Under the pieces are notes generated by a model that saw only the letters and a program-made list of their open reading frames with translations, searched no databases and was not told the DNA's origin. A program made the position numbers and the translations under genes. From Fictibacillus marinisediminis (GTDB lineage: Bacteria; Bacillota; Bacilli; Bacillales; Fictibacillaceae), in the NCBI RefSeq assembly GCF_023149135.1, contig NZ_JAIWJX010000002.1, forward strand, positions 3,720,001-3,784,000: 64,000 nt of DNA, in the 5' to 3' direction. This document shows, one piece after another, positions 1 through 19,129 of the stretch (position 1 is its first letter; each line of letters opens with the position of its first letter).

Positions 1-3000
1 TATCTAATGAAAGTTCTTTCGCTAGTAAACTAGCTAATTGCATGGCTTCATGTTTAACGAAATAGTGATTTCCTCTAGAAATCCTTGAACTCTTAACATT
101 TGTTGCAAAGGCTTTCCAATCCGCAGCACGATTTTCCTGTTTATTTGTTATGACGTCACATTCTCCTAATACACAATGAAGTGGTGTACGTAACTTGATA
201 GATGGTTCTTTATAATTTTTCTCGAAAAACCTTGCATGCTCTAACATGTCATGTCTTACTGCAGCGATAATTTCTTTAGTCTCTCCGTAATTGAGCGCCC
301 CGTCGAATCCACCAATTGACTGAAGATACATCTCCAACTCGTTTTCTGAAGTCGAATTACTGCGTTCTCTAGATCCCACTGGATCAATATCAGGTAAAGC
401 AGCACCTACATACAAAGTGTGAACCTCACGTCCATGCTTTTCCAACAATTGCGTCAGATAAACTGCTATGGTTGATCCTGAACATTGTCCATAAATTGCT
501 ATCGGACCATCAATCTTCTCTATAATTTCACGACAACATTTCTCAGCTATATCTTCCCAAGACATATACGATTCACCACGTCGTCCTGGATCATGTCCTG
601 GTAAAGCAACTGACCACAGTGCTATATGGGATGGAAGTGAATCAGCTAACGACTGATAGACAGTAACATTCCCACCTCCATAAGGAATACACACCAACGA
701 AATGTTATGATCTGACTCAGGTGTTAAACGATAGAGTAACTCAGCTTGAGATGAGACTGAACTTCTTAAATAGTTCGCTATCATACGAACTGTGCGCTGT
801 TTAAATAATTCTACAACAGGTAGTCCCCCTTCAATGCTTCGAGATAACCGAATTGCAGAGAATGAATCGCCACCTATTTCAAAGAAATCATCATCAATTC
901 CTATATCATCAATTCCTAGAATCTGCTTCCACGTATTTAGAATACTTGCTTCCAGTGTGTCTGTTGGCTCTTGTAGAGTCGCTTCGTTTATTTGAGGTGT
1001 AATCTTTTTCAAAGCAAGACGATCCACTTTTCCACTTCGATTTTTTGGAAGACTATCGATTCCTCTAAAGGAAGAAGGTATCATATATATCGGTAAAATT
1101 TGTGTGAGATACTCGCGCAAATTTATCTCTACGACATCTCTATCCATTACGGGCACATAATACGCTATCAATGATGAGCCTCGTTTATCATTGGAATTTA
1201 CAACTACAACAGCTTCTTTGATATCTTTGTAAGAACCTAGTGCAGATTCAATATCACTCAAATCCACACGTAACCCATGAACCTTAGCTTGAAAATCTAT
1301 ACGTCCGATAAGTTCAAGATTGCCATCTTTACGCCAACGCGCAAGATCACCTGTTCTAAAAAGTCTTTCTGGTTGATTTCCCCGTAAGTTATAATTGATA
1401 AAGCGTTTTTGAGTAAGTTCTGGCAGACCAATATATTCACGTGCTAGCCCAACCCCTCCGAGGTATAGCTCGCCTGGAACCCCTACAGGTGTTGGCTGCA
1501 TCCATCGATCAAGAACATAGACATGCTGGTTGGCCATTGGTTTACCGTATGGAATACTGGTCCAATGTTCTTCAATTTTATCAACCGAATAGATTGTTGA
1601 GTGAATTGAGGATTCTGTAGCACCACCAAGAGCAATAACTTTTACATTAGGTGCATACTTACGTAGTCTCTCGGGTATTGATACTGGTATCCAGTCCCCT
1701 CCCAGTAAAACTAAACGTAAATTTGGCAAATATATATCATTAGCCCGTTCAAGTTCTTCAACTAGTAATTCAAGTAAGGCGGGTGCTGAGTTCCAGATTG
1801 TGACTTCATTTTTACGCATCAAATCTAACCAATGTGTAGGTTCTCTCAAGGAATCAGAATCTGGGATCACTAACGTTCCTCCCGCGATTAGCATTCCCAT
1901 CGTTTCATAGACAGACATATCAAAGCTAGGTGATGAAAGAAAAAGTATCCGATCTTCTTTACTCACTGCAAATCTTTGATTTATATCCAGAAGATTATTT
2001 AGAGCACCTTGATGTCTAATTGCAATTGCTTTAGGTTTTCCGGTAGATCCGGAGCTACAAATAACGTATGCAAGCGACTCGCAACTACTAGCATTATTTT
2101 GCTTATTATTTAATTGTGAATTCCCAACTTTTTGATTTAAAGCGAAATTGTTCTGAGTAAAATCATCTACGTATACCATCTGTAAAGATTCGTTATGTAT
2201 TGATTCGGCCTCATTCTTACGTCGACTGATAAGAATCCGAGCGCCAACCTGTTGCATTGTATTAATAAGATGAGTATCAGTGTGATGTGACGGATCAAGG
2301 GGTACATATGCACATCCGGATTTAAGTATGGCAAGAACCGCTATGACAAATTCTGGTGAGCGTTCTATTGAGATTGCAATTACTTCTTCTGGCTTGGTGC
2401 ATACGGTGCGAAGATACGACGATAATCTTTCAGCGGCCCTGTTAAGGTCACCATAACAAAGAGTCTGATTGCCAGATATAATTGCAGTAGCATCGCTCTG
2501 TTTTTCTACTCTATGTCTAAACGTCTCATGTAGCGTTGTATTGGAGGAAAGATCTAAAGCTGTGTCGTTCCATTCTACTAAAATGGTGTCTCTTTCCTTG
2601 GCACTCAATAACGGTAGTTTAGAAAGACATACCATTGAATTCTTAGCAACCTCTTCGAGAACATTCAGATAATGCTCAATTAGGCGCTCAATAGTATCTG
2701 CCTCAAATAAATCCGTACTGTATTGTATATGTCCATACACACCCTCTTCAGTCGGTCGAGCACTCAACAATATATCGAACTTTGTTGTGATAAAACTTGG
2801 ATCCAACCAAGTAGCATCCAATCCATTGAATTCGGCAACTTCCGAAGGTGTCTCGTCTAACATGAACATCACGGAAGCCAAGGGATTACGATCAGCCGAT
2901 CGATGTGGGTTCAGCGCCTGTACAAGTAAGTCGAATGGATATTCCGAATTTGCATATGCCTCTAATGAGTTAGTACGAACTAGTTGTAACAATTCTTGAA

Positions 3001-4033
3001 AACTTGGATCATCATCAAATTGAGTACGTAGAATTATTGTGTTAACAAAAAAACCAATTAAACCTTGGAGTTCTGATCGATCACGTCCAGTAATTGAGCA
3101 CCCAAGCGATATATCAGTCTGACCCGTATAACGTGCTAATACTACTTTAAAAGCAGCGAGCATTACCATATATAGTGATGCTCGCTCCTCCTTAGCTAGT
3201 TCTTGTAAAGCAGTTACTAACTCTTTTCTTAAATTAAAATGTACCTGCGCCCCTTTATGTGATATGGTCGGAGGTCGTGGATGATCTGTTGGAAGATTGA
3301 TAACTTGTAAATTTTCTAATTTATCCTTCCAAAAATTAAGAAGATTTACACCTACAGGACCTTTGAGACGCTCATGCTGCCATAGTGAGTAGTCGGCATA
3401 TTGAATCGGTAACTCTGGTAGAGTGTGACTTTCTTCTCCTAAACCTGCATTATATACAGCAGCGAGTTCACGAAAAAGAATTCCAATTGACCAATGATCA
3501 TTAGCGATATGATGAATGTCTACAATTAAAACATGTTCCTCTGAATTCAGACAAATAAGTATTGATCGCATAATTGGACCTTTGCGAAGATTAAATGGTG
3601 TTGTAGCATCTTGTGCTATCACCTCTTCAATAGCTTTTTGCTGTTCTGAAGATGGTAATTTCGATAAATCATATTGTTTAAGTTCCAAAGGGATATCATC
3701 ATGGATGATTTGAATGGGCACTCCATCATGCATATCATACGTTGTCCTAAGAACCTCATGTCTTCTGACAACTGCATTTAAACTATTAATTAGCGCTTCT
3801 TTGTTTAAACAACCTTTAAGGCGTATTGGCACAGGACACGTGTAAGCAGGATTACCCGGGTCCAGTTCATCAATGAACCATAAGCGCTGTTGCGCATGCG
3901 ACATATAAACATTTTCATCTCTTGGATATTTTGAAATTTGATTTGCGTTTAATTTATTCTTCAATAGTAAAGAATTGAAAAGTGCTTTACGATCTTCAGG
4001 CAATCTTGATATACGCTCTGATATTTCACTCAT
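1..4033 (-). CDS. Nonribosomal peptide synthetase, C-A-PCP-TE (3' end beyond window)
   Basis: Terminal NRPS subunit, at least 1344 residues, open to the left edge so its C-terminus is missing. Domains in order: condensation (about 1-450, HHIAND motif near residue 172, a variant of HHxxxDG), adenylation (about 480-990, SSGSTGKPKA near 656, FDMSVYE, IWNSAPAL, LGGATESSIHS), peptidyl carrier (FFEIGGDS, Ser near 1054) and thioesterase (GQCSG nucleophile motif near 1181). The ten-residue code reads roughly D-M-Y-N-L-G-L-I-H, which I cannot assign to an amino acid. The ATG at 4033 has only a weak upstream GTGGGA. It lies 66 bases downstream of the MFS gene, so probably shares its operon. The TE makes it the likely chain-releasing module, hydrolysing or cyclising the product made by the two upstream synthetases. 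NRPS identity is certain; substrate is not. Confidence 0.95.
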   Translation of the reverse strand, partial: MSEISERISRLPEDRKALFNSLLLKNKLNANQISKYPRDENVYMSHAQQRLWFIDELDPGNPAYTCPVPIRLKGCLNKEALINSLNAVVRRHEVLRTTYDMHDGVPIQIIHDDIPLELKQYDLSKLPSSEQQKAIEEVIAQDATTPFNLRKGPIMRSILICLNSEEHVLIVDIHHIANDHWSIGILFRELAAVYNAGLGEESHTLPELPIQYADYSLWQHERLKGPVGVNLLNFWKDKLENLQVINLPTDHPRPPTISHKGAQVHFNLRKELVTALQELAKEERASLYMVMLAAFKVVLARYTGQTDISLGCSITGRDRSELQGLIGFFVNTIILRTQFDDDPSFQELLQLVRTNSLEAYANSEYPFDLLVQALNPHRSADRNPLASVMFMLDETPSEVAEFNGLDATWLDPSFITTKFDILLSARPTEEGVYGHIQYSTDLFEADTIERLIEHYLNVLEEVAKNSMVCLSKLPLLSAKERDTILVEWNDTALDLSSNTTLHETFRHRVEKQSDATAIISGNQTLCYGDLNRAAERLSSYLRTVCTKPEEVIAISIERSPEFVIAVLAILKSGCAYVPLDPSHHTDTHLINTMQQVGARILISRRKNEAESIHNESLQMVYVDDFTQNNFALNQKVGNSQLNNKQNNASSCESLAYVICSSGSTGKPKAIAIRHQGALNNLLDINQRFAVSKEDRILFLSSPSFDMSVYETMGMLIAGGTLVIPDSDSLREPTHWLDLMRKNEVTIWNSAPALLELLVEELERANDIYLPNLRLVLLGGDWIPVSIPERLRKYAPNVKVIALGGATESSIHSTIYSVDKIEEHWTSIPYGKPMANQHVYVLDRWMQPTPVGVPGELYLGGVGLAREYIGLPELTQKRFINYNLRGNQPERLFRTGDLARWRKDGNLELIGRIDFQAKVHGLRVDLSDIESALGSYKDIKEAVVVVNSNDKRGSSLIAYYVPVMDRDVVEINLREYLTQILPIYMIPSSFRGIDSLPKNRSGKVDRLALKKITPQINEATLQEPTDTLEASILNTWKQILGIDDIGIDDDFFEIGGDSFSAIRLSRSIEGGLPVVELFKQRTVRMIANYLRSSVSSQAELLYRLTPESDHNISLVCIPYGGGNVTVYQSLADSLPSHIALWSVALPGHDPGRRGESYMSWEDIAEKCCREIIEKIDGPIAIYGQCSGSTIAVYLTQLLEKHGREVHTLYVGAALPDIDPVGSRERSNSTSENELEMYLQSIGGFDGALNYGETKEIIAAVRHDMLEHARFFEKNYKEPSIKLRTPLHCVLGECDVITNKQENRAADWKAFATNVKSSRISRGNHYFVKHEAMQLASLLAKELSLD

Positions 4034-4099
4034 AAACCGTTCCCACTTTCAAAGAGAAATATATATAATCTTCCAATTTAAGCTACATTTTCAGATGTC

Positions 4100-5365
4100 T
4101 TACGCAATAGACTCTGCATTTTCAGATGCCTTACGCGATCGACTTAGATGACGATTAACGACTGCAATACATATAACCGATAAAAGTGCACAAATAAAGA
4201 ACACCATACCCAATCGCATATCGCTATGAGGCAGTACACCCACCTGTTTTGCCATTAATCCTAAGACACTAGTAGCAAACGCAGGTCCAATTACGACCAT
4301 TAACGTACGCACAGACATTAAAGAACCTATGGTCATTCCTTGTTCTGTCGGCTTCGTTGCTTTTGACACTATCGCTAACAATGCCGGACCTGTTAAATAT
4401 AATGGAATCGTTAATACAATAATCGGGAACATCATCCATCCCTGTGGAACAAGACCATACAATGCGAATCCAACAGCACCCGTGAATAGACCAATAAGAA
4501 CTGTACGTTCCTCACCAAATTTATCCACAAACACTTTCATTAAACCACCCTGGGCAATAGCCGTGGCTACTCCAACACATCCCAGCGCGATACCGTTCAT
4601 GTTCGCATCCCAGCCAAAACGGAAGTTTGTGTATAGTACCCAAGATTCAATCATCATTGCAAATGCTAACTGAAATAGAACCCATACAACAATTAAAAGA
4701 CCAATATCACGTCGACGAACCAATACCACAAAAGCGGATACTGGGTTTGCGCGTCGCAGTGAGAATGAAGCGCGTTTTTCCTTCGGAAGTGACTCTGGTA
4801 GCATGAAAAGACCATAAAGCCCATTGACAAGTGCTAATACTCCGACCACATAGAATGGTAAATTGATATTGATATCTCCTAACCAACCACCTAATAATGG
4901 ACCTAGGATGAAACCCATTCCAAACGCTATACCGAATTGACCAAATACCTTAGCTCGATCCTCAGGTTTTGTTATATCAGCAGCATAGGCATTGGAAACA
5001 GCATCAGTCGATTGTGTGGCACCAGCTATGATACGAGCGAACAACAACATTCCTAACGACGAAACAGTTCCAATCATAAAGTTACTAGCCGCAAGACCAA
5101 ACATCGACAACACAAGAATTGGTCTACGTCCAAATTTATCACTGAGTGCTCCCAACAAAGGCCCTAGGAAGAACTCCATCATTCCATAACTTACAGCTAG
5201 AGCACCATACCAAAGGGCTTGAGTTTGAGGATCTGTTGTATGTGAGCCGATTAGAATTGGCAACACTGGAATAATGATTCCCAAACAAAACATGTCAATA
5301 AAGACTAAAGATAGGATAAATGGCATTCCAGGTTTTCTCTTTGAAGAACTGTTAGTTGAACTCAT
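4100..5365 (-). CDS. MFS transporter, TetA-like exporter
   Basis: A 421-residue integral membrane protein of the major facilitator superfamily with about 12 predicted membrane segments. The signature GALSDKFGRRPIL between helices 2 and 3 and the 'IIPVLPILIG' first helix match the DHA1 drug:proton antiporters such as TetA. It has a good GGAGATAT ribosome-binding site before ATG. It lies between the SHMT-like gene (about 55 bases upstream) and the terminal synthetase, which suggests that it exports the peptide or gives self-resistance. That role is inferred from position only; no substrate can be read from the sequence. Confidence 0.9.
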   Translation of the reverse strand: MSSTNSSSKRKPGMPFILSLVFIDMFCLGIIIPVLPILIGSHTTDPQTQALWYGALAVSYGMMEFFLGPLLGALSDKFGRRPILVLSMFGLAASNFMIGTVSSLGMLLFARIIAGATQSTDAVSNAYAADITKPEDRAKVFGQFGIAFGMGFILGPLLGGWLGDININLPFYVVGVLALVNGLYGLFMLPESLPKEKRASFSLRRANPVSAFVVLVRRRDIGLLIVVWVLFQLAFAMMIESWVLYTNFRFGWDANMNGIALGCVGVATAIAQGGLMKVFVDKFGEERTVLIGLFTGAVGFALYGLVPQGWMMFPIIVLTIPLYLTGPALLAIVSKATKPTEQGMTIGSLMSVRTLMVVIGPAFATSVLGLMAKQVGVLPHSDMRLGMVFFICALLSVICIAVVNRHLSRSRKASENAESIA

Positions 5366-5420
5366 ATCTAATATCTCCTTAGTTTTTATAATGGTTTAGT
5401 TTAAAATATTAATAATGATT

Positions 5421-6791
5421 TCATAACAAAACTTGTTGCTTCTCATAATGAGGTAATGGATAGCGTCTGCATAAATCTATGACACTATTCTTTACTTCAT
5501 CTACTACATAAGACTCGATTCTATAGTCTGTGTCATTAATTGGCTCAACTCTAGAAAGTACTTTGTCGATAAGTGTCGCGCAATCTTTCATGGCTGCATC
5601 CATGCCTCGTATGGCTAGTGAGTTGGTTCCAAACCGAATTCCACTTGTTACTAACGGTCCTCTTTTGTCACCTGGTATTTTGTTTTTATTAACAATAATT
5701 CCACTCTCTTCAAGTACATTTTCAGCAATTTTTCCTGATAAACCGCGTTTGCCGATATCAACTAATACCATATGATTATCAGTACCACCAGTTAGTACAC
5801 AATAGCCTAAGTCTGACATCACTTCCCCAAATTCACGAGCCATGCTCACAATATTTTGTGCAAGTGTTCGAAATTGAGTAGTATTAACAATTGCTAAAGC
5901 GCGTGCTTTAGCTGCAATACCGCTTAGTGTCGGTGTACCTTGCATTTTTGGAAATACCCCACTATGAATAACTTCGGCTAGTGTTTTTGATCCTGATATT
6001 TGAGTATCCCAGTCTCTTCCACTCATAATCAGTCCACCACGAGGGCCATACAATTGTTTATAAGTACTAGTTGTAGTGAAATGTGCATGATCAATTGGAC
6101 TTGGGTGAACGCCGCTGGCAACTAAGCCAGCAATGTGGGATATATCTGCAAGTAGGAATGCTCCAATCTCGTCAGCAACTTTTCTAAAACGTTCAAAGTC
6201 AATTACCCGAGTATAGGCACTCGCACCACAAATAATTAAATGAGGTCGATGACGTTTTGCTAAATCAAGTACTTGATCATAATCAATGCGTCCCGTTTCG
6301 TCGAGTCCATATGCGAATGATTCAAAAACCTGGCCAGAAAAAGAGGCACGCGATCCATGAGTAAGATGCCCACCACTATCTAAGTCGAGACCAAGAACAC
6401 GATCACCTGGACGAAGAATGCTGAACATGACAATTTGATTAGCACTCGATCCGGAGTGTGGCTGAACATTCACATAGCGAGCACCAAAGGCTAACTTTGC
6501 TCGTTCGACTGCTATTTTCTCTACTTCATCGATATATTTGCAACCACCGTGAAAACGTCGCCCTGGATAACCCTCTGTCGTGACATTGGTCAATATTGAT
6601 CCTTCACATGCCAGAACTGAGGGATCTGCGACGCTGGATGAAGCAACCATGGACAATGTGTTCACTTGTCGTTGATGCTCTAAATCTAGTAAAGCAAATA
6701 GCTCTGGATCCTCATTTGCTAATCGAATAACTCCGTCACTTGCGAATTCCTCCATAAAACTTTCTCTAATTCTGTAATCCTCCAAATGCAT
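5421..6791 (-). CDS. Serine hydroxymethyltransferase-like PLP enzyme with altered active site
   Basis: About 456 residues, fold type I PLP enzyme aligning end to end with bacterial GlyA. Retained: the QPHSGSSAN phosphate loop, GGHLTHG, DISHIAGLV (PLP-ring Asp), the Schiff-base Lys in TTSTYKQLYGPRGG (near 243) and SGIRFGT (substrate carboxylate Arg). Changed against housekeeping SHMT: ASEN is ASSS, KYAEGYPG is VTTEGYPG, the RRYYGG tyrosines are F-H, and the residue before the Schiff-base Lys is Tyr instead of His. These positions line the folate/aldol pocket, so this is probably a specialised paralog acting on an unusual amino acid for the NRPS. The start is ambiguous: GTG (6794), ATG (6791) and TTG (6785) are consecutive in frame, and AAAGGAG is best spaced for the TTG. 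It sits after two terminators and needs its own promoter or read-through. Confidence 0.88.
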   Translation of the reverse strand: MHLEDYRIRESFMEEFASDGVIRLANEDPELFALLDLEHQRQVNTLSMVASSSVADPSVLACEGSILTNVTTEGYPGRRFHGGCKYIDEVEKIAVERAKLAFGARYVNVQPHSGSSANQIVMFSILRPGDRVLGLDLDSGGHLTHGSRASFSGQVFESFAYGLDETGRIDYDQVLDLAKRHRPHLIICGASAYTRVIDFERFRKVADEIGAFLLADISHIAGLVASGVHPSPIDHAHFTTTSTYKQLYGPRGGLIMSGRDWDTQISGSKTLAEVIHSGVFPKMQGTPTLSGIAAKARALAIVNTTQFRTLAQNIVSMAREFGEVMSDLGYCVLTGGTDNHMVLVDIGKRGLSGKIAENVLEESGIIVNKNKIPGDKRGPLVTSGIRFGTNSLAIRGMDAAMKDCATLIDKVLSRVEPINDTDYRIESYVVDEVKNSVIDLCRRYPLPHYEKQQVLL

Positions 6792-7111
6792 CACTCCTTT
6801 CTTTAATAGAAACTAAACTAATGCTCACAAAAATTAATTTGCAAACATCGCTTTACTAAGAAATATCACTACTTTTCATTGTTCCGTTTTAGTATAAAGA
6901 TAAAAAATTCTTTAATCCGTTACTTTAAATATTTGTTTTCTGTACTATCAGGTGATTAAAAGTTACTTTTTGTACATCTAAGGTATTGGGTCAATTATCT
7001 GTGTTTTGTATTCATCTAAAATTGCTAGATAAAATATGAAGACTTCAATTTAAAACTGAATATCTTTCGGAAAGCATCGGGCATCATGTAATAATATCTG
7101 AAATAGAAAAA

Positions 7112-7132
7112 AGACAGCCTATTCAGCTGTCT
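7112..7132 (-). terminator. Rho-independent terminator
   Basis: Perfect 7-bp stem AGACAGC/GCTGTCT with a 7-base loop, followed on the minus strand by six T residues. It is the second terminator after the hydrolase gene and lies upstream of the SHMT-like gene, so it helps divide the cluster into two transcription units. Confidence 0.75.
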
Positions 7133-7315: not shown

Positions 7316-7807
7316 TTAACTCACCAAGTCATCCAAACAAATGATTTCGCTTCCTTTACTTTCATAATACTCTATCATACCGTCAATTTTTTTCTTATCA
7401 TAACTGGTAATGCAATCTGATAGTACACTAACTCCATAGTTGGATTTACGCAAGTTATAGCAAGTTGACTTAACACAAGCAATAGCATCTGCTCCAGTAA
7501 TGTAGAAATCTTCTATTTCATTTTTACTAATAAAGTCTGCAAATTCTTCACTTGTTAATGCGTTTCCTTTATATTTTGTAAAAACATTTTCTGATACAAT
7601 TTTTAAATCTGGAACTAATTCGGCACCTCGTGTACCTGTTTTGAAAGTTCTCGTACCGGCTGACAAATTCTCATGTCTTATATAAACAACATGAATCTTA
7701 TTTTCAACCGCCCAATCAATTGATTTATTGATATTGTCAATGATGTCTTTGTAATTCTTTGTTATATCATTTTGAATATCAATTACTACTAAAGCTTTGT
7801 TCTGCAT
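7316..7807 (-). CDS. Isochorismatase-fold cysteine hydrolase
   Basis: 163 residues, normal for the nicotinamidase/isochorismatase-like superfamily. The catalytic triad can be seen: Asp in VIDIQND (near 10), Lys in FTKYKGNAL and the nucleophilic Cys in GADAIACVKST. A strong AGGAGGAAG site precedes the ATG. It is the last gene of the AT-rich block and is followed by a terminator. In an NRPS cluster it might hydrolyse an amide or make a precursor acid, but the family covers nicotinamidases, carbamoylases and isochorismatases and the substrate cannot be read. No 2,3-dihydroxybenzoate genes are present, so an isochorismatase role is unsupported. Confidence 0.85.
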   Translation of the reverse strand: MQNKALVVIDIQNDITKNYKDIIDNINKSIDWAVENKIHVVYIRHENLSAGTRTFKTGTRGAELVPDLKIVSENVFTKYKGNALTSEEFADFISKNEIEDFYITGADAIACVKSTCYNLRKSNYGVSVLSDCITSYDKKKIDGMIEYYESKGSEIICLDDLVS

Positions 7808-7951: not shown

Positions 7952-8800
7952 TTAAACCTCAAGTTGGATCGGATACATTGGAACAAGTTCGCCATAACCA
8001 TGTAAATTCATCCTATCAATACATATGCGGCTGCGTGTGGGGAAAAATTCAATTCCGCTTGTTTTATCGTAAAGTTCAAAAAAATTAATATACAATATCC
8101 GTTCTAAAAAGAAACAGATTAATGATTCCTCTTGTTTTAGTATATGTGTAGATGATGTATTGATAGATTCAAATTCAATGTTAGGGATTATGAATTTTGA
8201 AGCAAATACAAGCGGGCCAATTTCAATCTTGCTCTGAGTCACATTTAAGAACAGAATACGTTCACTCTTTTGCACCCACAGCTTATCTTTCTCATAATCT
8301 CTTCCTTTTGTAATTACAATGTCATATTTATCTTTCTTTATATCGTCATTCTCTTCAGTAACGTTCAGAAAAGGTATTTCGGAAAGTAATTTTGACAGAT
8401 GTGGCAAAGAGTTGCCCAGAGATAAATACACATCAAAAATTTTTTTATCTATAATGATCTCTTCAACTCGATTTATATACTCTTCAAACAAATCTCTGGA
8501 GATCATTACTGGTAAGAAAAACTCAGTATACTGCCTTATAAATTTAAACAGTGATTTCATTCTATTATCGGAACAAGAAGTAAAACCAAATGGAAATGAG
8601 TTAATTAGTTTATCCATCTCTAATGACTCTAAAGATCCATCTGTTTCATCACTCTGCCCGTAATACATGATTTGTTTAAACTTATCCAAATCAATTCCGT
8701 TATCCTTAAATGTAACTAATGCACTATTTGATATACTGTTTTTTATAATGATAATATTTGCTTCTTTCACTATTTGAAATTTATGATTTAAAAAGTTCAT
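7952..8800 (-). CDS. Unknown protein, possibly a degenerate ThiF/E1-like partner of the azoline oxidase
   Basis: 282 residues, very AT-rich, not confidently recognised. It starts seven bases after the oxidase gene ends, so the two are probably translated together. The stretch DIVITKGRD...ERILFLNVTQSKIEIGPLVF (about 160-205) resembles the segment of TOMM ThiF-like (E1-like) proteins in which a hydrophobic strand leads to an 'IGPLV' motif. The usual ATP-binding GxGxxG and the CxxC zinc pairs are absent, so if related it is a pseudoenzyme or scaffold. No signal peptide or membrane segment. A scaffold that docks the oxidase on the synthetase is conceivable but is inference. Confidence 0.6.
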   Translation of the reverse strand: MNFLNHKFQIVKEANIIIIKNSISNSALVTFKDNGIDLDKFKQIMYYGQSDETDGSLESLEMDKLINSFPFGFTSCSDNRMKSLFKFIRQYTEFFLPVMISRDLFEEYINRVEEIIIDKKIFDVYLSLGNSLPHLSKLLSEIPFLNVTEENDDIKKDKYDIVITKGRDYEKDKLWVQKSERILFLNVTQSKIEIGPLVFASKFIIPNIEFESINTSSTHILKQEESLICFFLERILYINFFELYDKTSGIEFFPTRSRICIDRMNLHGYGELVPMYPIQLEV

Positions 8801-9622: not shown

Positions 9623-12358
9623 TTATAACATGCTGCAAAGAGATTTTATATCAACTTTACCATTTTTCGTCAGAGGTATTTCTGGAATCGAAATAATACG
9701 ATTAGGTATCATATATAAAGGCAATTTCTTTGATAATTCAGAACGTATTTGTCTCTTAATATCTGGATTATCCTTACAAACTATAGCGCTTATTAATCGT
9801 GTACGACCAGTTTGCATCTTTTCGATAAAAGCAACTGAGTTTGAGACATCAGCTTGCCTATTAATATATTTTTCTATTTCTCGTAAATCTATTCTATAAC
9901 CATTATGCTTAATTTCACTTGTAACTCTTCCTACTATATAAATGAGATTGTCCGTTCCCAAGTAACCTAAATCTCCTGTTTTGTATATTATTTCCTTCAG
10001 TTCCTCGTTCCAAACAAACGAATCATTCGTTTGTTTTTCACTAAGGTAACCCTTTGCAAGCCCTTTTCCTGCTATACAGATTTCTCCTAAAACCCGAAAA
10101 TCACACAAGTCCCCTTTTGAATCGATAATATATAGCTCTTGGTTAGCAAGCGGCACACCATATGGTATAGTAGAAACATTTTGATAAGAAGAACAATCAT
10201 AGTAATTTGACCAGATGGAAGCTTCTGTTGCTCCCCCTAAAGCATATAATTGGATACGATCATAACTACAAAATAACTCTTCAACTGTTTTCTTCGGTAC
10301 GAAATCCCCGCTAACTAATATCCCTCTCAAATTTTCAAATTTATACTTTAGTAAAAATTCTTTCGCTAAAGCAGGTGTTGAATTCCAAATGCTGATTTTA
10401 TTGTGATAGTCATTTTCAAAAAACCAAGTACTATCGTAGGCTTCCACAAAAACAACCGACATTCCACAAATTATCGATCCGAAAATGTCAAAAATGGAAA
10501 GATCAAAATACAAATTTGAAATATTCATTACTGTATCTTTTTGAGTGATATTAAACTTTTCAAGAATATCATAAACCGTATTTAGAGCTGCTTTTTCTGT
10601 AATTATTATTCCTTTAGGTTGTCCTGTTGTTCCCGATGTGTGTATTACATATGCTTCTTCTTTATCGATGTGAACATTTATATCAGATATCTTGGTTAAT
10701 TCACCATTTTTAAAATAGATGTAGTTTTGTATACTTGAAAGAATTTCTTCGGTTTTTTCATCTCCAAAACTCTCATTGACCACACAAAAAGAATCATTAG
10801 TTAATATGCAGGCAAAAATGCAAACAATAGAATGAATATTTTTTTTTCCATTGAATGCAATACGTACTTTATTTTTTTTATGCTCTTTTTTTATTCTCCG
10901 AATTTCCTCGGCTTTATTTTGGGCCAAATCAAATATTTGGTTGAAGGTATATTCAGTGTTATTAATAGTTGCAAATACTTTTTCTGGATATTTGTTTGCT
11001 GTTTTTTCTAAGTGTTGCTTTAATGTATTGAATTTAAAATCGATCTTACTTGTTTGAGAATTGTATTTCTCGTATTTTGAAATTAATTCGGACTTCTTTG
11101 AAAGAGTATAATTGCTAATAACGTCTTCAGTTGAGTTTAAAAATCCAAAAATTAATGAGCAGTATTCAGAAAACATTGTATCAATTATAGTTGTGTCAAA
11201 CATATCACTTCGATAGTTCCAAGAAATATTCAATTCTTCTCCTATGTTTTTTACCTGAAAATCTAGATACGTCTCTAGATTCGGTGAAAAACAATAATCT
11301 TCCTTTAATACATTATCAAACAAATCAGCTTCTTCATTAAATAACAATGATGTAAAAGATACAGGAGTAATTGCAGAAAGGGACTTTTTTTTCATCTCAC
11401 GTATTACTTCCGTTGTTTCAAAATACTTATATCTTGAAGCCTGATCAAGACTTAACTTAAGTCTTTGAATATTCTCTTTGAAGGATTTATCGAAATCAAA
11501 ACTTGTCTGCAATAAAAATGAAGATGTGAAATTACCGATTATTTTATGATATTCTTTCCCTTCTGGACGATTAGAATAATATAAATTAATTGAGAAATTT
11601 TGCTCTTTGGACCATTTAGAGAGAATTAGTGAATATGAAGTGAGGAGGATACTCGTCACAGAAGTGGATAGCTCATCTGCCTTTTTTTTAAGTAGTTCAT
11701 AAAGATCCTTCTTAATACTGCATTCTTGACGTAAAAAATCTATAGCCATCGTTTGTTCCGTCTGATAATTAATTTGAGGAGCTGGATAGATATTTTCAAT
11801 GTTATTTATGTAGTAATCTTTTGACTCTATATATCTTTCACAACTTCTTGTTTCTTGATAAAAGTTTTGTATATGCAACAATTCATTTGAATAATCATTA
11901 CCTGACATAATTGGATTAGATAAGAACATCTTTAACTGTTGTATAAGCTCGGAAACGCCTAGTCCATCTGTAATAAGAAGATCTATACTTAAAAAAATTC
12001 TAAGGCCTTCTTTCTCTTCAATCGCTTCTATTGTAAAGAGAGGGTAATCTTTCATTCCATATTTCTTTTGAGATAATTCTTTTCTCTTCAGTTCTACTAA
12101 TGAAGAATCAAAGTGCTGATTCTCATGAACTGGAATTTTATATTTTAAAACTTCTTCGATAATAAAATTCTCATTATCAAAAATCCTCGCATTTAGCATA
12201 GGTTGAGATTCAATTAACTTTTCAAAAGCCTGTTCAAAATCTCTAATGTGACCATTATATATAAATTCTATGTAATGGTTCGTACCTACTCCTTCTCGAG
12301 AGTCATTATCTTTAAACATTAGATATTCTTTTTGTAGTTCTGTCATTTTAATATGCAT
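9623..12358 (-). CDS. Nonribosomal peptide synthetase, Cy-A (cysteine-type), no carrier domain
   Basis: 911 residues. The N-terminal heterocyclisation domain (about 1-430) has DLLITD near 125, the FTS threonine of PVSFTS near 332 and the LDFQV aspartate near 362, so the Thr-Asp pair known from Cy domains is kept. The Ser of D-x4-D-x2-S is Gly here. The adenylation domain (about 450-911) has TSGTTGQPKG, YFDLSIFDIFG, IWNSTPAL, VSGDF, LGGATEASIW and the A10 lysine in KNGKVD. The specificity code reads D-L-F-N-L-S-L-I-W, one step from the cysteine code DLYNLSLIW. The protein stops right after A10 with no PCP, so it must load the separate carrier protein encoded just upstream. AAGGAGAAGG precedes ATG. 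Confidence 0.93.
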   Translation of the reverse strand: MHIKMTELQKEYLMFKDNDSREGVGTNHYIEFIYNGHIRDFEQAFEKLIESQPMLNARIFDNENFIIEEVLKYKIPVHENQHFDSSLVELKRKELSQKKYGMKDYPLFTIEAIEEKEGLRIFLSIDLLITDGLGVSELIQQLKMFLSNPIMSGNDYSNELLHIQNFYQETRSCERYIESKDYYINNIENIYPAPQINYQTEQTMAIDFLRQECSIKKDLYELLKKKADELSTSVTSILLTSYSLILSKWSKEQNFSINLYYSNRPEGKEYHKIIGNFTSSFLLQTSFDFDKSFKENIQRLKLSLDQASRYKYFETTEVIREMKKKSLSAITPVSFTSLLFNEEADLFDNVLKEDYCFSPNLETYLDFQVKNIGEELNISWNYRSDMFDTTIIDTMFSEYCSLIFGFLNSTEDVISNYTLSKKSELISKYEKYNSQTSKIDFKFNTLKQHLEKTANKYPEKVFATINNTEYTFNQIFDLAQNKAEEIRRIKKEHKKNKVRIAFNGKKNIHSIVCIFACILTNDSFCVVNESFGDEKTEEILSSIQNYIYFKNGELTKISDINVHIDKEEAYVIHTSGTTGQPKGIIITEKAALNTVYDILEKFNITQKDTVMNISNLYFDLSIFDIFGSIICGMSVVFVEAYDSTWFFENDYHNKISIWNSTPALAKEFLLKYKFENLRGILVSGDFVPKKTVEELFCSYDRIQLYALGGATEASIWSNYYDCSSYQNVSTIPYGVPLANQELYIIDSKGDLCDFRVLGEICIAGKGLAKGYLSEKQTNDSFVWNEELKEIIYKTGDLGYLGTDNLIYIVGRVTSEIKHNGYRIDLREIEKYINRQADVSNSVAFIEKMQTGRTRLISAIVCKDNPDIKRQIRSELSKKLPLYMIPNRIISIPEIPLTKNGKVDIKSLCSML

Positions 12359-12551: not shown

Positions 12552-12806
12552 CTAGCTTACGACTAATACTCTTTCTGCCAGATCATCAGCGAACTCACCA
12601 ATTGTCTCAGTCAACATAATGCTTTCAATAGATACTTTTATCGATAACTGCTCTTCTAGTTCATTTTTGATTTTCATTGCAGTTAAAGAGTCACCACCTA
12701 AATCATAAAAATTGTCTTCCGGTAGAACTCCTGGTTGGTTAAGTTGTTCAGAAAACACAAGTACTACCCTTTTTAAAATGCCTTCGTTATTGTTTAATTC
12801 GTTCAT
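12552..12806 (-). CDS. Free-standing peptidyl carrier protein
   Basis: 84 residues from the ATG at 12806, preceded by GGGAGGATATATTT; an in-frame upstream TTG at 12824 is less likely because it overlaps that site. The motif NFYDLGGDSLTAMKI holds the phosphopantetheinyl serine (near residue 40), and the size and four-helix pattern fit a PCP. It lies between a synthetase ending in a Cy domain and one made of Cy-A without a carrier, so it most likely carries the cysteinyl group. A separate carrier at this point would need docking contacts with both partners. Confidence 0.92.
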   Translation of the reverse strand: MNELNNNEGILKRVVLVFSEQLNQPGVLPEDNFYDLGGDSLTAMKIKNELEEQLSIKVSIESIMLTETIGEFADDLAERVLVVS

Positions 12807-12911
12807 AAATATATCCTCCCTCAATCTTTTTAAGTTGATCTATCAACGTTCCCGAATTGCGGGAACATGCGACATACTTCGAAAAATACTGGTCAAACCC
12901 TATACCTTGAA

Positions 12912-15900
12912 TCAAACATCGAGTAAGCTTTGGTTCCAAATTCCAGGCTCATCGGCAAGTTGGTTTAGCAAGTCACAGAAAGAACTAAACATTTCCTCGA
13001 TTACATCAGGCCGAATAACTCCTACGATGTAGTCCCATTTAAAATGCAGCGTTCCCTTTGACTCTCGAACTTGAACATCAAGAGTTACCTGTGGAGTCTG
13101 TGACGTACCAAATACCTCTCGCCCTAATAAAGAGACATCATGACGACCTTGATGTCCAAGAAGGCTGGTCAACACTACTGGCATCAACGGCTTAGGACCT
13201 GTACGTTTAAGTCGGGATAGTTCGCGTAAAACTTCAACTCCTGTAAAAAGTCGATGATCAAGCGCCTGCCAAATTGCCTCCTGTAAAAGCTGTCCACGTG
13301 TTTGAAGTGTGTCATCAGCAGCAACTTCGTAGGGTACAAGTAGCGGATTAGTGAAATCTCCAACTACAAAATTAATGTCGTCATTGATTGACATTCGATC
13401 TGAGATGGGAAGATTCAAAGTAAATTGATCTTTTTCGCTCCAGCTGCTTAATGCTTCACAAAATACTAGGGCCACAACACCAGAAGGAGAGATTTTCCGT
13501 TCTTGTCCTTGGCTTTTGAGTAGTTCCCATTTCTCTTTTTCAAGTGTACCTTCAAATCTTTCAAACCTCACTGGAGCACCAGTTTCAATTTGTTCAAGTT
13601 GAGGTAACTTTGGGGCATCAGGCAACTTATGGATTTTTTCTAACCAGTATTCACGATGAGAATGATATTGTGCACTATGTTTTACTTTGTTCCGGTATGC
13701 CACATAATCTTGAAATGTGGTGTGAATAGGTGGTAATTCTGTTTCTTCTTTACTGTATAGATCAATTATGTCCGGGATAATTACTTGAAAGATCGACCAT
13801 GCATCTGCGATTAATAAGTCAATATTGAAATGAATTCTGCTTATCTGTGGACTGATTTGGCTCACAACGAATCGAAATAGAGGCCATTCTGCTATTCCAA
13901 TTTCCTGATTTGCCATGCGTTTACGCATCTTGTTAATCTCATTTTCAATCTCATTTGGTGAAAGATCACTTATATCTATGAACTCGACTGCTTGGCTCGC
14001 ATCAACTGTTCCGATTCTTTGACATCCTGAATCATCAATTGTCGCTCTTAGCATTGGGTGACGCTCGACCAGCATGACTACCGCACGAGCAAATCGATCT
14101 CGATTCAAGTCTTCAACTTCCCACTCAAAGTACCCTTGACAACCTATATCTCCATAATTGAAATCAGAGCCACGACCTATCCATAAAGCTTGTTGATATT
14201 CAGTGAGATTGAAGGGCTCTAATTGCTGATCAATAGGCAGATTCTCAAATTTTGGCATGTCAATTGTCTGAGAGATAGTTGATAGATGTAATAGGTTCGA
14301 GAATACTGGATTTTCAAGAAAGGGGCTCATTTCGATGTTGATTCCATACTTGTAAGTCAAATCCCCTAGCATCCGCATAGCTCGCAAAGAATCTCCGCCT
14401 TCTTGAAAGAAATTAGATTCAAGAGTGATCTCATCACATCTAGTCCATGCCAACCAACATTCACGCAAAGCAGTCTCATTTTTCGTAGACGGGTAAAAAG
14501 CTGTGTGTACTTTATCTCGCTCCACTAGATTGGAACGTAATGCAGCATAATCAACCTTATCATTGTATCCTAGAGGCAACTTTGTTGTTCTAATCTGACT
14601 AGGTTGTGCAGCAGGATGTAACTTTTTACTAAGATATTGCCTAACCTCATTTTTGACGTTCTCAGCATTTGGAGCCGTCTCAATAAATAGTTCAAGTATT
14701 TCTCCAGCGCTATCATTGAAGCAAAGAGCAGCAGCTTTTGCCACACCTGAAACTTCAAGTGCAGTTATTTCAATTTCTGCTAAGTCCACTCTATGCCCTC
14801 TTATCTTCACAAGTGCATTTGAACGTCCGAAAATTTCGACAGTTCCATCCAAACTCATACGTGCTCGATCTCCGGAACTATATTGCAGTTTCGAAGTTGT
14901 ATCCAATTCATTTGGGCGAAATGATTTTTGAGTTTCTTTATAATCTATATAACCCTTGGACAGTGTTTCACCAGTAATAATCAATTCACCAATACAGCAC
15001 GCTGGCAACTCTCTTCCATCATCATCAACCACATACATGTTTACACCAGGTACTGCGCGTCCAACACTAGGTAACAATGTACGACGCGACGCTTCAGATA
15101 AATCCTCTATAGATACAACAGCAGCTTCTGCAGATCCATAGACGTTAAGTACACGATATTCTGTCTTCGGCCACTGCTTACAACGTTCACCTGCAACTAG
15201 CATTGTCTGTAAACCACTATGAAAACCGTTAGCCCAGAGAGCTTCTGCAATTGATGTCATAACTAGCGTGTTTGTGATATTGGTTTTAGTGAACCAGTGT
15301 GCCAGCAACTTAATATCTTTCAAAACATCAGATGATGGGATGCATACAGTTCCGCCGGCACAAAGCACTGGAAGCGGATCTACTTCGATCATTCCATATC
15401 CAGGCGACGATAGCCATGATCCTCTAGAATTTGTGCCTAGCTCAGCAGTGTCAATGATAGTATCAATTGTAGCTGCCATCCCGCTGTAAGATAAACAAGC
15501 TGCCTTAGGTCGTCCAGTAGTTCCCGAAGTACCTGCAATGAAACACACATCATTGTCAGTTTTGATCCATTCATCGTTTTCTTGTTTAAGCTGTGTGTGC
15601 TCATATATTCCTTTATCAAAATCTAGTACAGGATAGCTTGTTAGACTACGTGCTCTGTCTATTACATTGACAGCAGAAATTATAGCGTCAGGACTACATT
15701 CATTCAGAAAGTCTCGTATCCGATCATCAGGATTTGTCAAATCTATAAGTACACAGGTTCCACCCATACGTTGGGTTGCGATCACAGAGATTAAGTGTTT
15801 CCAACTCCGTTCAATGAATATGGCAATTCTGGGATATGCCTCCTGAGTGTTTATTTGTTCACGCACCTGCTGTATAACTGATTCTGATGCTTTCCAAAGT

Positions 15901-16601
15901 TCGTCATAGGTTAATATTTTCCCACTCACATCATCTAAAATTGCCATACTTAATGGATTTTTCTGCTTGTGATTGTAGATGTGTTCAATCATGGACTTGT
16001 GCTGACGCTGTATGTATTTAGGGCGGGTAGGTAAACTATCGACTGCAGGTATAACCTTTTTATCTTTAAGAGCTTTCTCAAATGCAAAAGTCGTAATTTT
16101 ACACAAATGCGCAAACATATTGGAGTCAATACAATCACCCTTGATGGAAAGTGTACAACGCCCATTTTGGGCTAGCAGCCATATTGATGATTCTTCTGAC
16201 AAGTTACTCTTAATATTCGACACCTCAATGTCCAGAGTTATACCATTAAGTCTTGGTATTTCACTGTTATAACGTAGATTATGTATGAAAGCATGGACAT
16301 CGTTGATATCATGTAGTTTAGTCGTGTCAATTTCGATATAAGTTGGAGATTCATCGGTAGTTATACCCACGTTTACTCGACCTTCAGAACTGAGTAACGA
16401 ACCAAGAATTGCTGCAGTCACAATAGTATTATCAAGGGTTGCAGTATGTCCCTCAGGCAAAATAATCTCCTCTTCAATTCGCTCAATCCTTGTTAATCTG
16501 CTGGTTGCATAAGATTTGAATGCATCTAAAACTGTCCGATTAATACTCGAATCTACATCCATGATCATCCTAGCAGGTTTTTGTTTATTAATTGTGTACA
16601 T
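12912..16601 (-). CDS. Nonribosomal peptide synthetase, A-PCP-Cy (initiating subunit)
   Basis: 1229 residues. Residues 1-195 are unassigned but look like the C-terminal half of a condensation-type domain without HHxxxD. The adenylation domain (about 200-700) has TSGTTGRPKA near 355, NVYGSAEAA near 484, GRSNALVKIRGHRVD and the A10 lysine in NDKVD. The A4 site reads PGYGMIEVD where FDxS is usual, so the Asp that binds the alpha-amino group is missing. This suggests a starter without a standard amine. PCP follows (FFQEGGDSLRAM, Ser near 737), then a full Cy domain (about 830-1229) with DLLIADAWS near 931, PVVLTS and TLDVQV. GGAGGCATTCGC precedes ATG. It is the first gene of the biosynthetic operon. 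Confidence 0.93.
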   Translation of the reverse strand: MYTINKQKPARMIMDVDSSINRTVLDAFKSYATSRLTRIERIEEEIILPEGHTATLDNTIVTAAILGSLLSSEGRVNVGITTDESPTYIEIDTTKLHDINDVHAFIHNLRYNSEIPRLNGITLDIEVSNIKSNLSEESSIWLLAQNGRCTLSIKGDCIDSNMFAHLCKITTFAFEKALKDKKVIPAVDSLPTRPKYIQRQHKSMIEHIYNHKQKNPLSMAILDDVSGKILTYDELWKASESVIQQVREQINTQEAYPRIAIFIERSWKHLISVIATQRMGGTCVLIDLTNPDDRIRDFLNECSPDAIISAVNVIDRARSLTSYPVLDFDKGIYEHTQLKQENDEWIKTDNDVCFIAGTSGTTGRPKAACLSYSGMAATIDTIIDTAELGTNSRGSWLSSPGYGMIEVDPLPVLCAGGTVCIPSSDVLKDIKLLAHWFTKTNITNTLVMTSIAEALWANGFHSGLQTMLVAGERCKQWPKTEYRVLNVYGSAEAAVVSIEDLSEASRRTLLPSVGRAVPGVNMYVVDDDGRELPACCIGELIITGETLSKGYIDYKETQKSFRPNELDTTSKLQYSSGDRARMSLDGTVEIFGRSNALVKIRGHRVDLAEIEITALEVSGVAKAAALCFNDSAGEILELFIETAPNAENVKNEVRQYLSKKLHPAAQPSQIRTTKLPLGYNDKVDYAALRSNLVERDKVHTAFYPSTKNETALRECWLAWTRCDEITLESNFFQEGGDSLRAMRMLGDLTYKYGINIEMSPFLENPVFSNLLHLSTISQTIDMPKFENLPIDQQLEPFNLTEYQQALWIGRGSDFNYGDIGCQGYFEWEVEDLNRDRFARAVVMLVERHPMLRATIDDSGCQRIGTVDASQAVEFIDISDLSPNEIENEINKMRKRMANQEIGIAEWPLFRFVVSQISPQISRIHFNIDLLIADAWSIFQVIIPDIIDLYSKEETELPPIHTTFQDYVAYRNKVKHSAQYHSHREYWLEKIHKLPDAPKLPQLEQIETGAPVRFERFEGTLEKEKWELLKSQGQERKISPSGVVALVFCEALSSWSEKDQFTLNLPISDRMSINDDINFVVGDFTNPLLVPYEVAADDTLQTRGQLLQEAIWQALDHRLFTGVEVLRELSRLKRTGPKPLMPVVLTSLLGHQGRHDVSLLGREVFGTSQTPQVTLDVQVRESKGTLHFKWDYIVGVIRPDVIEEMFSSFCDLLNQLADEPGIWNQSLLDV

Positions 16602-16874: not shown

Positions 16875-16902
16875 TAGACAAACTTTTTAATGATACTATA
16901 GT
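16875..16902 (+). promoter_or_regulatory. Sigma-A-type promoter of the Spo0A-like regulator
   Basis: TAGACA (16875-16880), a 16-base spacer and TATAGT (16897-16902), about 90 bases upstream of the regulator start. The -10 hexamer overlaps the inverted repeat at 16899-16917. Assigned by eye from the hexamers only. Confidence 0.45.
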
Positions 16903-16917
16903 TGCGTTTTGCAACTA
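16899..16917. promoter_or_regulatory. Inverted repeat overlapping the -10 region, possible operator
   Basis: TAGTTGC and GCAACTA form a perfect 7-bp inverted repeat around GTTTT. It overlaps the -10 hexamer and start region of the regulator promoter, a normal position for a repressor or autoregulator site. There is no T-run after it, so it is unlikely to be a terminator. Confidence 0.45.
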
Positions 16918-16927
16918 CTACGTTTAC

Positions 16928-16934
16928 ATCGACA
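16928..16934 (-). promoter_or_regulatory. Candidate Spo0A-type box
   Basis: The minus strand reads TGTCGAT, one base off the Spo0A consensus TGTCGAA. It lies between the regulator promoter and its start codon. A 7-mer with one mismatch is weak on its own; it is noted because the adjacent gene encodes a Spo0A-like DNA-binding domain. Confidence 0.25.
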
Positions 16935-16989
16935 TTTGTTTATAATAAAATTTACTTTATTATCAGTTTTTATCAATTTTTAGGAAAGA

Positions 16990-17793
16990 GTGAAAAATTT
17001 GGAAAATAATTTAACTATTCTATTGGTTGAAGATGATGAAGCTGAATGTCAAGCAATGAGTAACTACATAGAAAGCACTACTGATGTAAAATTAGTGGGA
17101 ATTACTAAAGACAGTATGCAAGCACTTGAATATTTCTCTTCTTATCAGCCTGATGTCATTGTGTTGGATTTAGAATTGCATAATGGTAAAGGAGACGGTT
17201 TATCATTTTTAGAAAATATGGCTCAACAAAAGATTGATCATAAACCTTTTATTCTCGTTACTACTAATAACAATAGTCAGATTATTCATAATCAAGCTCG
17301 TAAATTTGGAGCGGATTTTATAATACCTAAATACAAAGAAAATTACAGTGCACAAAATAGCGTTCAGTTTTTAAGAGCACTTAAACAATCAATCCAACGC
17401 TCCAACAAGAGTAATTCCGTCCGCTCAGTCTCGTATAACACTCCTCATACTCCACAGAAGCCTCAAGAAAAAATGGAAAAAAGGCTTTTTAGCGAGTTTA
17501 ATCACATTGGCATCAGTCCTAAAATGAAAGGACGTAAATATCTTACAAATGCAGTACAAATACTACTAGAGGATCCAACCTCCAAAGTGTGTTTCATAAT
17601 AGCCAATAAATATAGCAAAACCGAAGCCAGCGTATCGCGTGCAATGCAAAATGCAATTAATAATGCTTGGAGTAGTTGTAATATGGACAATCTGACCAAG
17701 TATTACACAGCACACATTCGTTCCGATAAGTGTGTTCCAACATACATGGAATTTATCCATTATTATGCTGATAAAATTAAAACTGATTTGTAA
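16990..17793 (+). CDS. Orphan response regulator with Spo0A-like DNA-binding domain
   Basis: 267 residues. The N-terminal receiver (about 8-130) has the acidic pair E14-D15-D16, the predicted phospho-acceptor Asp60 in VIVLDLEL, a switch Thr in LVTTNN and the Lys in IIPKYK. A linker of about 30 polar residues leads to a C-terminal domain (about 165-267) that aligns with the Spo0A effector domain: IGISPKMKGRKYL, then a recognition-helix region ASVSRAMQNAINNAWS, matching the Spo0A pattern (S/A)xVxRAIxxAIxxAWS, and CVPTYMEFIHYYADKI. It starts at a GTG behind AGGAAAGA and is divergent from the NRPS operon. No kinase is adjacent. It probably links the cluster to a developmental or phosphorelay signal; it is not the housekeeping Spo0A, whose DNA-binding sequence differs. 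Confidence 0.85.
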   Translation: MKNLENNLTILLVEDDEAECQAMSNYIESTTDVKLVGITKDSMQALEYFSSYQPDVIVLDLELHNGKGDGLSFLENMAQQKIDHKPFILVTTNNNSQIIHNQARKFGADFIIPKYKENYSAQNSVQFLRALKQSIQRSNKSNSVRSVSYNTPHTPQKPQEKMEKRLFSEFNHIGISPKMKGRKYLTNAVQILLEDPTSKVCFIIANKYSKTEASVSRAMQNAINNAWSSCNMDNLTKYYTAHIRSDKCVPTYMEFIHYYADKIKTDL

Positions 17794-18436: not shown

Positions 18437-19129
18437 CTAATCTTTGAAAATTTCAATTAACAAAAAATCGTAATTTATACCTTGCTTAAATAGAAAAAAG
18501 TGATTTCCCTCAATTTCTATAAATGTAGGTTTTTGAGTGGAATGATCCGACCAGCCATCCACTTTTTCACCTCTTATTTCATCTTGACTTCCGGTTAAAA
18601 TAATTGTTGGCACTATAATTTTTTGTGAAACTCTAAAAGTATACTCTTCGATTAGACGAAGATCATTTTTTATGATTGGTAAAAAAATTTCTTTAAATTC
18701 AGGGATGTATAGTAATTCAGTAGTAATAGCTCCTAGTTTAGATAACTGATATACTAATCTACTATCATTTCCCAAATCATACTTTATCGTATTCAATTTA
18801 TCAGGAGGATATTGGCCTGAAAAGAATATCTTCTTTGGCAATTTACATCCTATTTTCACCAGTTGCTGATAACACTCAAAGGCAACTATGCTTCCCATAC
18901 TATGACCCAGAAGCATATAATCTTCCTCAATATCAATGTTATTCATAATAAATTCTGAAGCTTCAAGTCCTACTTCAAATAATGATGAATAAAATCCCTC
19001 ATCAACTCTACTGCCTCTTCCCTTATACATATAAGGTAGTAAATCAACACCGTATTTTGAGAATTTATTTTTCATTCTATAATAAACATGTCCATCCCCA
19101 CCAGCATATGCAAACGTAATTAGTTTCAA
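18437..19129 (-). CDS. Type II (editing) thioesterase
   Basis: 230 residues, typical for free-standing alpha/beta-hydrolase thioesterases of NRPS and PKS clusters. It begins with the family pattern LITFAYAGGDGHVYYR, has GRGSR (compare the usual 'PGR' element) and the nucleophile motif GHSMGS with Ser77; the late Asp in GSQDE and His in GNHFFLF complete the triad. Translation starts at TTG behind AGGAGG. Such enzymes remove wrongly loaded groups from carrier proteins and keep the assembly line running. It points the same way as the synthetases but is separated from them by the regulator, so it has its own transcript. Confidence 0.88.
   Translation of the reverse strand: MKLITFAYAGGDGHVYYRMKNKFSKYGVDLLPYMYKGRGSRVDEGFYSSLFEVGLEASEFIMNNIDIEEDYMLLGHSMGSIVAFECYQQLVKIGCKLPKKIFFSGQYPPDKLNTIKYDLGNDSRLVYQLSKLGAITTELLYIPEFKEIFLPIIKNDLRLIEEYTFRVSQKIIVPTIILTGSQDEIRGEKVDGWSDHSTQKPTFIEIEGNHFFLFKQGINYDFLLIEIFKD

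Follow-up and report, generated by a model that had tools for sequence, protein, structure and literature searches.

What does the nonribosomal peptide synthetase (NRPS) cluster at the start of this Fictibacillus marinisediminis DNA make, and how much of it does the DNA contain? The window, that is, the whole stretch of 64,000 nucleotides analyzed here, is C2:3,720,001-3,784,000 of a 4.57-Mb genome (G000), and the original prediction placed a thiazole-type cluster at its positions 1-19129. By its predicted functions, the cluster is larger and richer than that: a putative thiazole- and methyloxazoline-forming NRPS with an oxidase pair of the kind found in the biosynthesis of ribosomally synthesized and posttranslationally modified peptides (RiPPs) and with an AlkZ-like (AZL) glycosylase gene.

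Extent, gene content, and proposed product

All six Condensation-family matches in the genome (E <= 0.001) lie in this one cluster, between C2:3,709,981 and 3,734,207, so the genome has no other cluster with such domains, and the window holds the upstream portion of this one. A cluster complete within positions 1-19129 is ruled out by these matches, which extend past the left end of the window. Reading the DNA left of the window as loci L007 and L008, we found 13 further genes to the left of the gene that encodes the C-A-PCP-TE protein (A, adenylation; C, condensation; Cy, heterocyclization; PCP, peptidyl carrier protein; TE, thioesterase), giving a cluster of 24 genes and 37.4 kb with its left end at about C2:3,701,706. 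Every gene on the earlier parts list is present, and only the regulator is encoded on the plus strand. The earlier coordinates were incomplete, since the C-A-PCP-TE gene overruns the left end by 71 nt and the 13 additional genes follow. With the partner protein excepted, the best Pfam matches of the listed proteins range from E 1.5e-11 (SagB) to 4e-132 (serine hydroxymethyltransferase [SHMT]), which is beyond chance. The features in the window are as follows.

18437-19129, minus: type II TE, first of two in the cluster (PF00975, 76 bits; 30.7% GC)
16990-17793, plus: Spo0A-like response regulator, transcribed away from the synthetase genes (PF08769, 72 bits; PF00072, 55 bits)
12912-16601, minus: A-PCP-Cy (Pfam; A pocket without Asp235; Cy motif DLLIAD intact)
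12552-12824, minus: free PCP (PF00550, 51 bits)
9623-12358, minus: Cy-A, proposed to act in trans (Pfam; pocket DLFNLSLIW; 30.3% GC)
8808-9545, minus: SagB-type flavin mononucleotide oxidase (PF00881, 45 bits; 29.4% GC)
7952-8800, minus: 282-aa partner of the SagB oxidase, putatively E1-like (30.5% GC)
7316-7807, minus: isochorismatase-fold cysteine hydrolase (PF00857, 99 bits)
7112-7132, minus: stem-loop resembling a terminator, after the cysteine hydrolase gene (stem of 8 pairs with a T run; weak, as 12 such sites were found against 9.4 expected in shuffles)
5421-6794, minus: second, diverged SHMT, proposed α-methylserine supplier (PF00464, 441 bits)
4100-5365, minus: major facilitator superfamily (MFS) exporter (PF07690, 164 bits)
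1-4033, with 71 nt left of the window, minus: C-A-PCP-TE, proposed last module (Pfam; pocket DMYNLGLIH, Thr-like)

To the left of the window, the assignments come from Pfam/NCBIfam unless another basis is given in parentheses.

L008:13871-15838, minus: C-PCP
L008:13158-13874, minus: second type II TE
L008:12516-13100, minus: PCP protein, 194 aa (front an A-domain C-terminal remnant by eye)
L008:9165-12440, minus: Cy-A-PCP
L008:7986-9101, minus: AlkZ-like glycosylase (PF06224, 203 bits)
L008:6719-7945, minus: class-V pyridoxal phosphate (PLP) enzyme
L008:4352-6706, minus: half C domain and full A domain protein
L008:2839-4155, minus: PaaK-like ligase
L008:1432-2832, minus: TrpE-like
L008:814-1416, minus: TrpG-like
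L007:13917-14693, minus: short-chain dehydrogenase/reductase (SDR)
L007:12503-13585, minus: 3-deoxy-D-arabino-heptulosonate 7-phosphate (DAHP) synthase-chorismate mutase
L007:11706-12419, minus: phosphopantetheinyl transferase (PPTase)

In Paenibacillus sp. GSMTC-2017, of which we used stretches L011 and L024 to L026, 20 of the 24 genes have counterparts, and the 20 pairs compared all align, at 53 to 78% identity; the two hosts therefore carry one cluster family.

The likeliest product appears to be an aryl/thiazole/4-methyloxazoline peptide. In this scheme, DAHP synthase, TrpE/TrpG, and the SDR would generate an aminobenzoate-type acid, loaded by the PaaK-like ligase and/or the acid-type first A domain. 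The trans-acting Cy-A would then put cysteine on the free PCP, where it would be cyclized, and SagB and its E1-like partner would convert the carrier-bound thiazoline to a thiazole. The SHMT would supply α-methylserine for incorporation as a 4-methyloxazoline by the FmoA3-like Cy-A-PCP. The C-PCP would receive, in trans from the protein with the half C domain and the full A domain, a monomer connected with the class-V PLP enzyme. It and the C-A-PCP-TE, acting next, would add two residues, the second Thr-like, before the product is released. The MFS pump would export it, and the AlkZ-type glycosylase would protect or repair the DNA of the producer. Taken as a whole, this scheme of a half-seen, probably horizontally acquired 37-kb NRPS cluster has the balance of probability slightly in its favor. 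The small R-CO-thiazole-amino acid compound originally predicted is too small: we reject it because the half outside the window contributes another Cy module, a C-PCP, a stand-alone A protein, a PaaK-like ligase, and genes for shikimate-derived precursors. No described product or close cluster of this kind was found in the open-license literature searched, which does not cover MIBiG.

Proposed methyloxazoline module, SHMT, and AlkZ-like glycosylase

Which monomer does the Cy-A-PCP module use? Its best match among solved structures is 6LTA (844 bits), ahead of LgrA (712 bits, in two stretches), BmdB (631 bits), and dihydroaeruginoate synthetase (515 bits). We take 6LTA to be FmoA3, the methyloxazoline module of JBIR-34/35; its pocket, read by eye from the alignment, is DAYNVSSCW, and that of the Cy-A-PCP is DAFNISAVW. 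SHMT matches number two in G000 and two in genome G415, one of each in the cluster. The cluster copy scores 441 bits against PF00464 versus 599 bits for the other G000 copy, and in NCBIfam it reaches 465 bits with the SHMT subfamily and 91 bits with fluorothreonine transaldolase. Relative to the other copy, the changes common to both hosts are TTTTHK to TTSTYK around the PLP lysine, the YYGGCE stretch (FHGGCK), and QGGPLMH, which indicate divergence rather than a particular use. The "altered SHMT" of the original prediction, listed there in a set that was not recognized, is indeed a second, diverged copy. Its likely role, best explained by gene company and by FmoH, presumably the dedicated SHMT of the fmo cluster, would be to supply α-methylserine for the methyloxazoline.

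The closest parallels are the Streptomyces clusters for JBIR-34/35 (fmo) and tambromycin (BGC0001368), which share with ours a Cy-A-PCP nearest 6LTA, a dedicated SHMT (in fmo), and an AlkZ-like gene in the cluster. The present cluster, in a Firmicute host, differs by its thiazole cassette (Cys-type Cy-A, SagB, and E1-like partner), shikimate-type precursor genes, and class-V PLP enzyme, and no family for their indole starter with halogenase was found among its 24 proteins, each scanned in Pfam or NCBIfam. Structures of FmoA3 for 4-methyloxazoline formation are cited in the part of PMC9547227 consulted, and tambromycin A contains α-methylserine according to the part of PMC8466323 consulted.

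Alternatively, both Cy modules may use cysteine, yielding a bis-thiazole or a thiazole-thiazoline, with the SHMT acting as a glycine/one-carbon feeder or as a threonine aldolase/transaldolase on a β-hydroxy residue. Asn278 and Trp331 are common to the Cy-A-PCP pocket and the Cys pocket of the cluster, and SHMT-family enzymes can be transaldolases, in keeping with the 91-bit match. However, four of the nine pocket positions differ (236, 299, 322, and 330), 6LTA outranks BmdB among the solved matches, and the SHMT subfamily outscores the transaldolase. We regard this alternative as unlikely and favor the proposed methyloxazoline.

The AZL gene lies between the Cy-A-PCP and PLP genes in both hosts, with 72% identity, and the only solved match of its product at E <= 0.001 is AlkZ (5UUJ, E 5e-24). 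In both hosts its catalytic motif is QAQ, which agrees with the (Q/H)-aliphatic-Q motif that defines the AZL class and with the cluster-associated form QΦQ; Streptomyces AZL genes are mostly in or near biosynthetic clusters, and 0 of 442 YcaQ-like genes are within 20 kb of one (PMC9040887). By analogy with azinomycin self-resistance, where an AlkZ-like glycosylase with a Q-aliphatic-Q motif is likewise encoded within the biosynthetic cluster though the product chemistry is unrelated, the glycosylase may confer self-resistance against the cluster's own product. AZL genes also occur in the tambromycin and JBIR-34/35 clusters, whose compounds have no known function and for which genotoxicity or a role other than DNA repair has been offered (PMC9040887). 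Why those two clusters carry the gene was left open by Bradley et al. (PMC9040887). Judged by homology, the set of SHMT, FmoA3-like module, and AZL gene recurs in Firmicutes, and a Bacillus-type host with this set makes the question testable in a tractable group.

Among the 120 AZL homologs listed of 814, 13 reach 60% identity, after which identity falls to 43%. Equal contig sizes suggest, by coincidence of size only, that homologs of AZL, the PLP enzyme, and the partner perhaps share contigs (203,084 for all three; 23,527 and 23,460 for PLP and AZL; 37,559 for partner and AZL). The contigs of P0050 and P0109, both 18,006, would, if verified, favor a general PLP-AZL link, against which stands an Acidobacterium genome where the AZL look-up found nothing beyond a 29% fragment that contains a stop codon. 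In that metagenome-assembled genome, a class-V PLP gene (L012:9899-11143; 42%) sits in a large NRPS locus, adjoining a synthetase whose A-domain pocket is nearly that of the stand-alone A protein of our cluster, a lead for an unusual monomer.

Could the product instead be an aryl-capped thiazoline/oxazoline siderophore, with the AZL gene a bystander? Aryl acids combined with Cy chemistry are, we presume, typical of the pyochelin and yersiniabactin types. SagB is present in nocobactin clusters, according to the part of PMC7413640 consulted. Yet no genes for siderophore uptake, ferric reductase, or N-hydroxylase were noticed among the open reading frames (ORFs) listed, no family search having been made; export is by an MFS protein; and the AZL gene has been retained at the same place in both hosts. 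A siderophore is improbable.

Predicted thiazole part and oxidase pair

The earlier expectation that a Cy domain together with a SagB-type oxidase yields a thiazole is supported by the presence of Cy, a Cys-type A domain (the Cy-A pocket, DLFNLSLIW), and SagB. Substrates were assigned to pockets by codes that we take to be correct (e.g., DLFNLSLIW as Cys-type). The pocket of the A-PCP-Cy protein lacks Asp235, and its A domain therefore probably activates a non-amino acid, e.g., an aryl acid.

How did a free PCP and a separate Cy-A arise? The free PCP aligns to residues 1416 to 1499 of a 1,524-aa Paenibacillus protein, in which it is fused behind a partial A domain: there A-PCP-Cy is followed by an A domain reduced to its C-terminal part (motifs A6 to A10 only, by reading) and then by the PCP. 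In the window this remnant is absent and the PCP is free-standing. The simplest story would be that the in-line A domain decayed and was replaced by the trans-acting Cy-A with its Cys-type pocket, which would account for two Cy domains with a DxxxxD motif beside one PCP. In both hosts, the GC content of SagB, the partner, Cy-A, and the cysteine hydrolase is 28 to 32%. For the remaining cluster genes measured, it is 34 to 43% in G000, the first TE excepted (31%), and 42 to 51% in Paenibacillus (C-A-PCP-TE left out), an azoreductase-like gene excepted (35%). As this low-GC cassette is 69 to 78% identical between the hosts, like the other synthetase and tailoring genes (68 to 78%), it appears to have joined the core before the copies of the two hosts parted.

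SagB scores 63 bits with TIGR03605 (E 2e-17), under the cut-off of 78.4, as does the SagB-like protein of a YcaO RiPP locus (L039), to which it is 48% identical over its full length. The "small partner" of the original prediction does stand beside SagB; it matches no Pfam or NCBIfam family, its top fold matches are E1-like proteins, McbB included, and it now looks like the E1-like protein of RiPP azole synthetases. The pair also occurs in L039 (G550:C7:305001-325000), where YcaO, thiopeptide-type, lantibiotic-dehydratase-type, and SagB-like proteins and the E1-like partner are encoded in one locus. The cluster has no YcaO; the sole one of G000 is at C2:420773, 3.3 Mb off. Around it, C2:419,047-424,479 (L043:3047-8479) encodes a nitroreductase-family protein (521 aa), the YcaO protein (646 aa), and a protein without Pfam match (635 aa), probably a linear azole peptide locus.

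As in the bacillamide synthetase (bmd), Cy heterocyclization would be followed by a SagB-type oxidase. As in the microcin B17 synthetase McbBCD and in thiopeptide and other thiazole/oxazole-modified microcin systems, an E1-like subunit stands beside a SagB/McbC-type oxidase, but here without YcaO, and the substrate would be carrier bound. Oxidation of an NRPS azoline by SagB after Cy heterocyclization has precedent in nocobactin clusters (PMC7413640, in the part consulted), for which that part mentions no E1-like partner such as the one paired with SagB here. That the pair belongs to a RiPP pathway encoded at another locus and lies in the cluster by chance is very improbable: each of two genomes has one YcaO elsewhere and the low GC marks a separate origin of the pair, but the G000 YcaO locus has its own nitroreductase-family protein, both hosts retain the pair within the NRPS cluster (69 to 78% identity), and a Cys-type Cy-A of equally low GC accompanies it.

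The pair, if it acts in the cluster, would represent RiPP-type enzymes recruited to a carrier-protein substrate. Only tentatively do we join these proposals into one: that the oxidase half of this NRPS was captured from a RiPP azole synthetase, that a trans-acting Cy-A of the low-GC cassette replaced a decayed in-line A domain, that a methyloxazoline peptide reactive toward DNA is produced, and that the AlkZ-like gene in common with tambromycin and JBIR-34 marks methyloxazoline peptides as a hidden genotoxin class in actinobacteria and Firmicutes. If so, the E1-like protein, which grips the leader peptide in RiPP enzymes, would present carrier-bound thiazoline to SagB.

Relatives, probable horizontal spread, and minor genes

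Compared with Paenibacillus, four of the five A pockets are the same at all nine positions and the fifth has one difference. The MFS exporter is 70% identical, and the least conserved pairs are PaaK, TrpE, TrpG, and SDR (53 to 63%). Gene order is rearranged except for two blocks, Cy-A-PCP with AlkZ-like, PLP, and A genes, and PaaK with TrpE, TrpG, and SDR. The ORFs listed from the Paenibacillus stretches included no counterpart of the first TE, the Spo0A-like regulator, the DAHP synthase, or the PPTase. The originally noted "Spo0A-like regulator" has both receiver and Spo0A_C domains and scores 124 bits with TIGR02875, under the Spo0A equivalog cut-off of 200, so it is a relative of Spo0A and not Spo0A; being unseen among the Paenibacillus ORFs listed, it is probably no feature of the cluster family. 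Two other regulator genes lie upstream of the cluster there instead, one of the NusG family (L024:11298-11945), which we assume may be LoaP-type, and one of LuxR type (L024:9380-10210).

The cluster family is rare among the sampled species: the partner was found in 1 of 34 genomes of the family, the class-V PLP enzyme in 1 of 397 of the order, and matches to the partner alignment in 2 of 398 of the class. A scan of genome contigs with the single PLP-enzyme sequence found no relative; a scan with alignment A1 gave 13 loci, of which L011 and L012 were used here.

The cluster was probably acquired horizontally. The conspecific genome G023 lacks the partner gene (search of the 34 genomes), and no match to the DAHP synthase there exceeds 74%. 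The flanking DNA is near together there: long matches end at C2:3,742,396 and resume at C2:3,695,202, with a gap of 7.5 kb in G023 versus 47 kb in G000, which an extra 101-bp match (87%) at C2:3,740,400 narrows to 4.9 kb versus 45 kb. The difference is more than a single clean insertion, since the next stretch left of the cluster, C2:3,700,144-3,701,330, has its 98% match on a different G023 contig. The DAHP synthase of the cluster shares 73% identity with the other G000 copy, and in the other genomes of the genus no copy exceeds 74%. Four of six other genus genomes (G020, G021, G023, and G025) carry a second gene for DAHP synthase-chorismate mutase, at 59 to 61% identity, of which G000 showed no counterpart besides the 73% copy and the one in the cluster.

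By their unchecked labels, homologs come from Bacillus halotolerans (PLP, 96%), B. atrophaeus (AZL, 91%), and Paenibacillus, and for the partner from Mammaliicoccus (58%) and Staphylococcus aureus (57%). Plasmid searches gave no match for the partner or the PLP enzyme, 32 records for AZL, and 333 for Cy-A-PCP. Of four regions inspected, L031 has an AlkZ-like gene with no annotated NRPS gene nearby, L034 has an NRPS gene in a neighborhood unlike that of the cluster, and L032 and L033 carry no annotation at the matched place.

The cysteine hydrolase, 75% identical to its Paenibacillus counterpart, keeps the Asp, Lys, and Cys of the triad by reading, and among solved structures it matched only 3OQP. 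With the chorismate/trans-2,3-dihydro-3-hydroxyanthranilate pathway (limazepine, tilimycin, and benzoxazoles), the cluster shares DAHP synthase, a TrpE-type synthase, SDR, and an isochorismatase-fold protein; here, however, the hydrolase is short, keeps its Cys, and has no PhzD match, and TrpE and TrpG are separate proteins. A 3-hydroxyanthranilate starter is only a possibility, against which the lack of a PhzD match speaks.

Elsewhere in the window, two adjoining genes at 23645-27020 resemble, on visual inspection, M14 carboxypeptidases that end in repeat tails; they are 61% identical to each other and are paired in G023, too.

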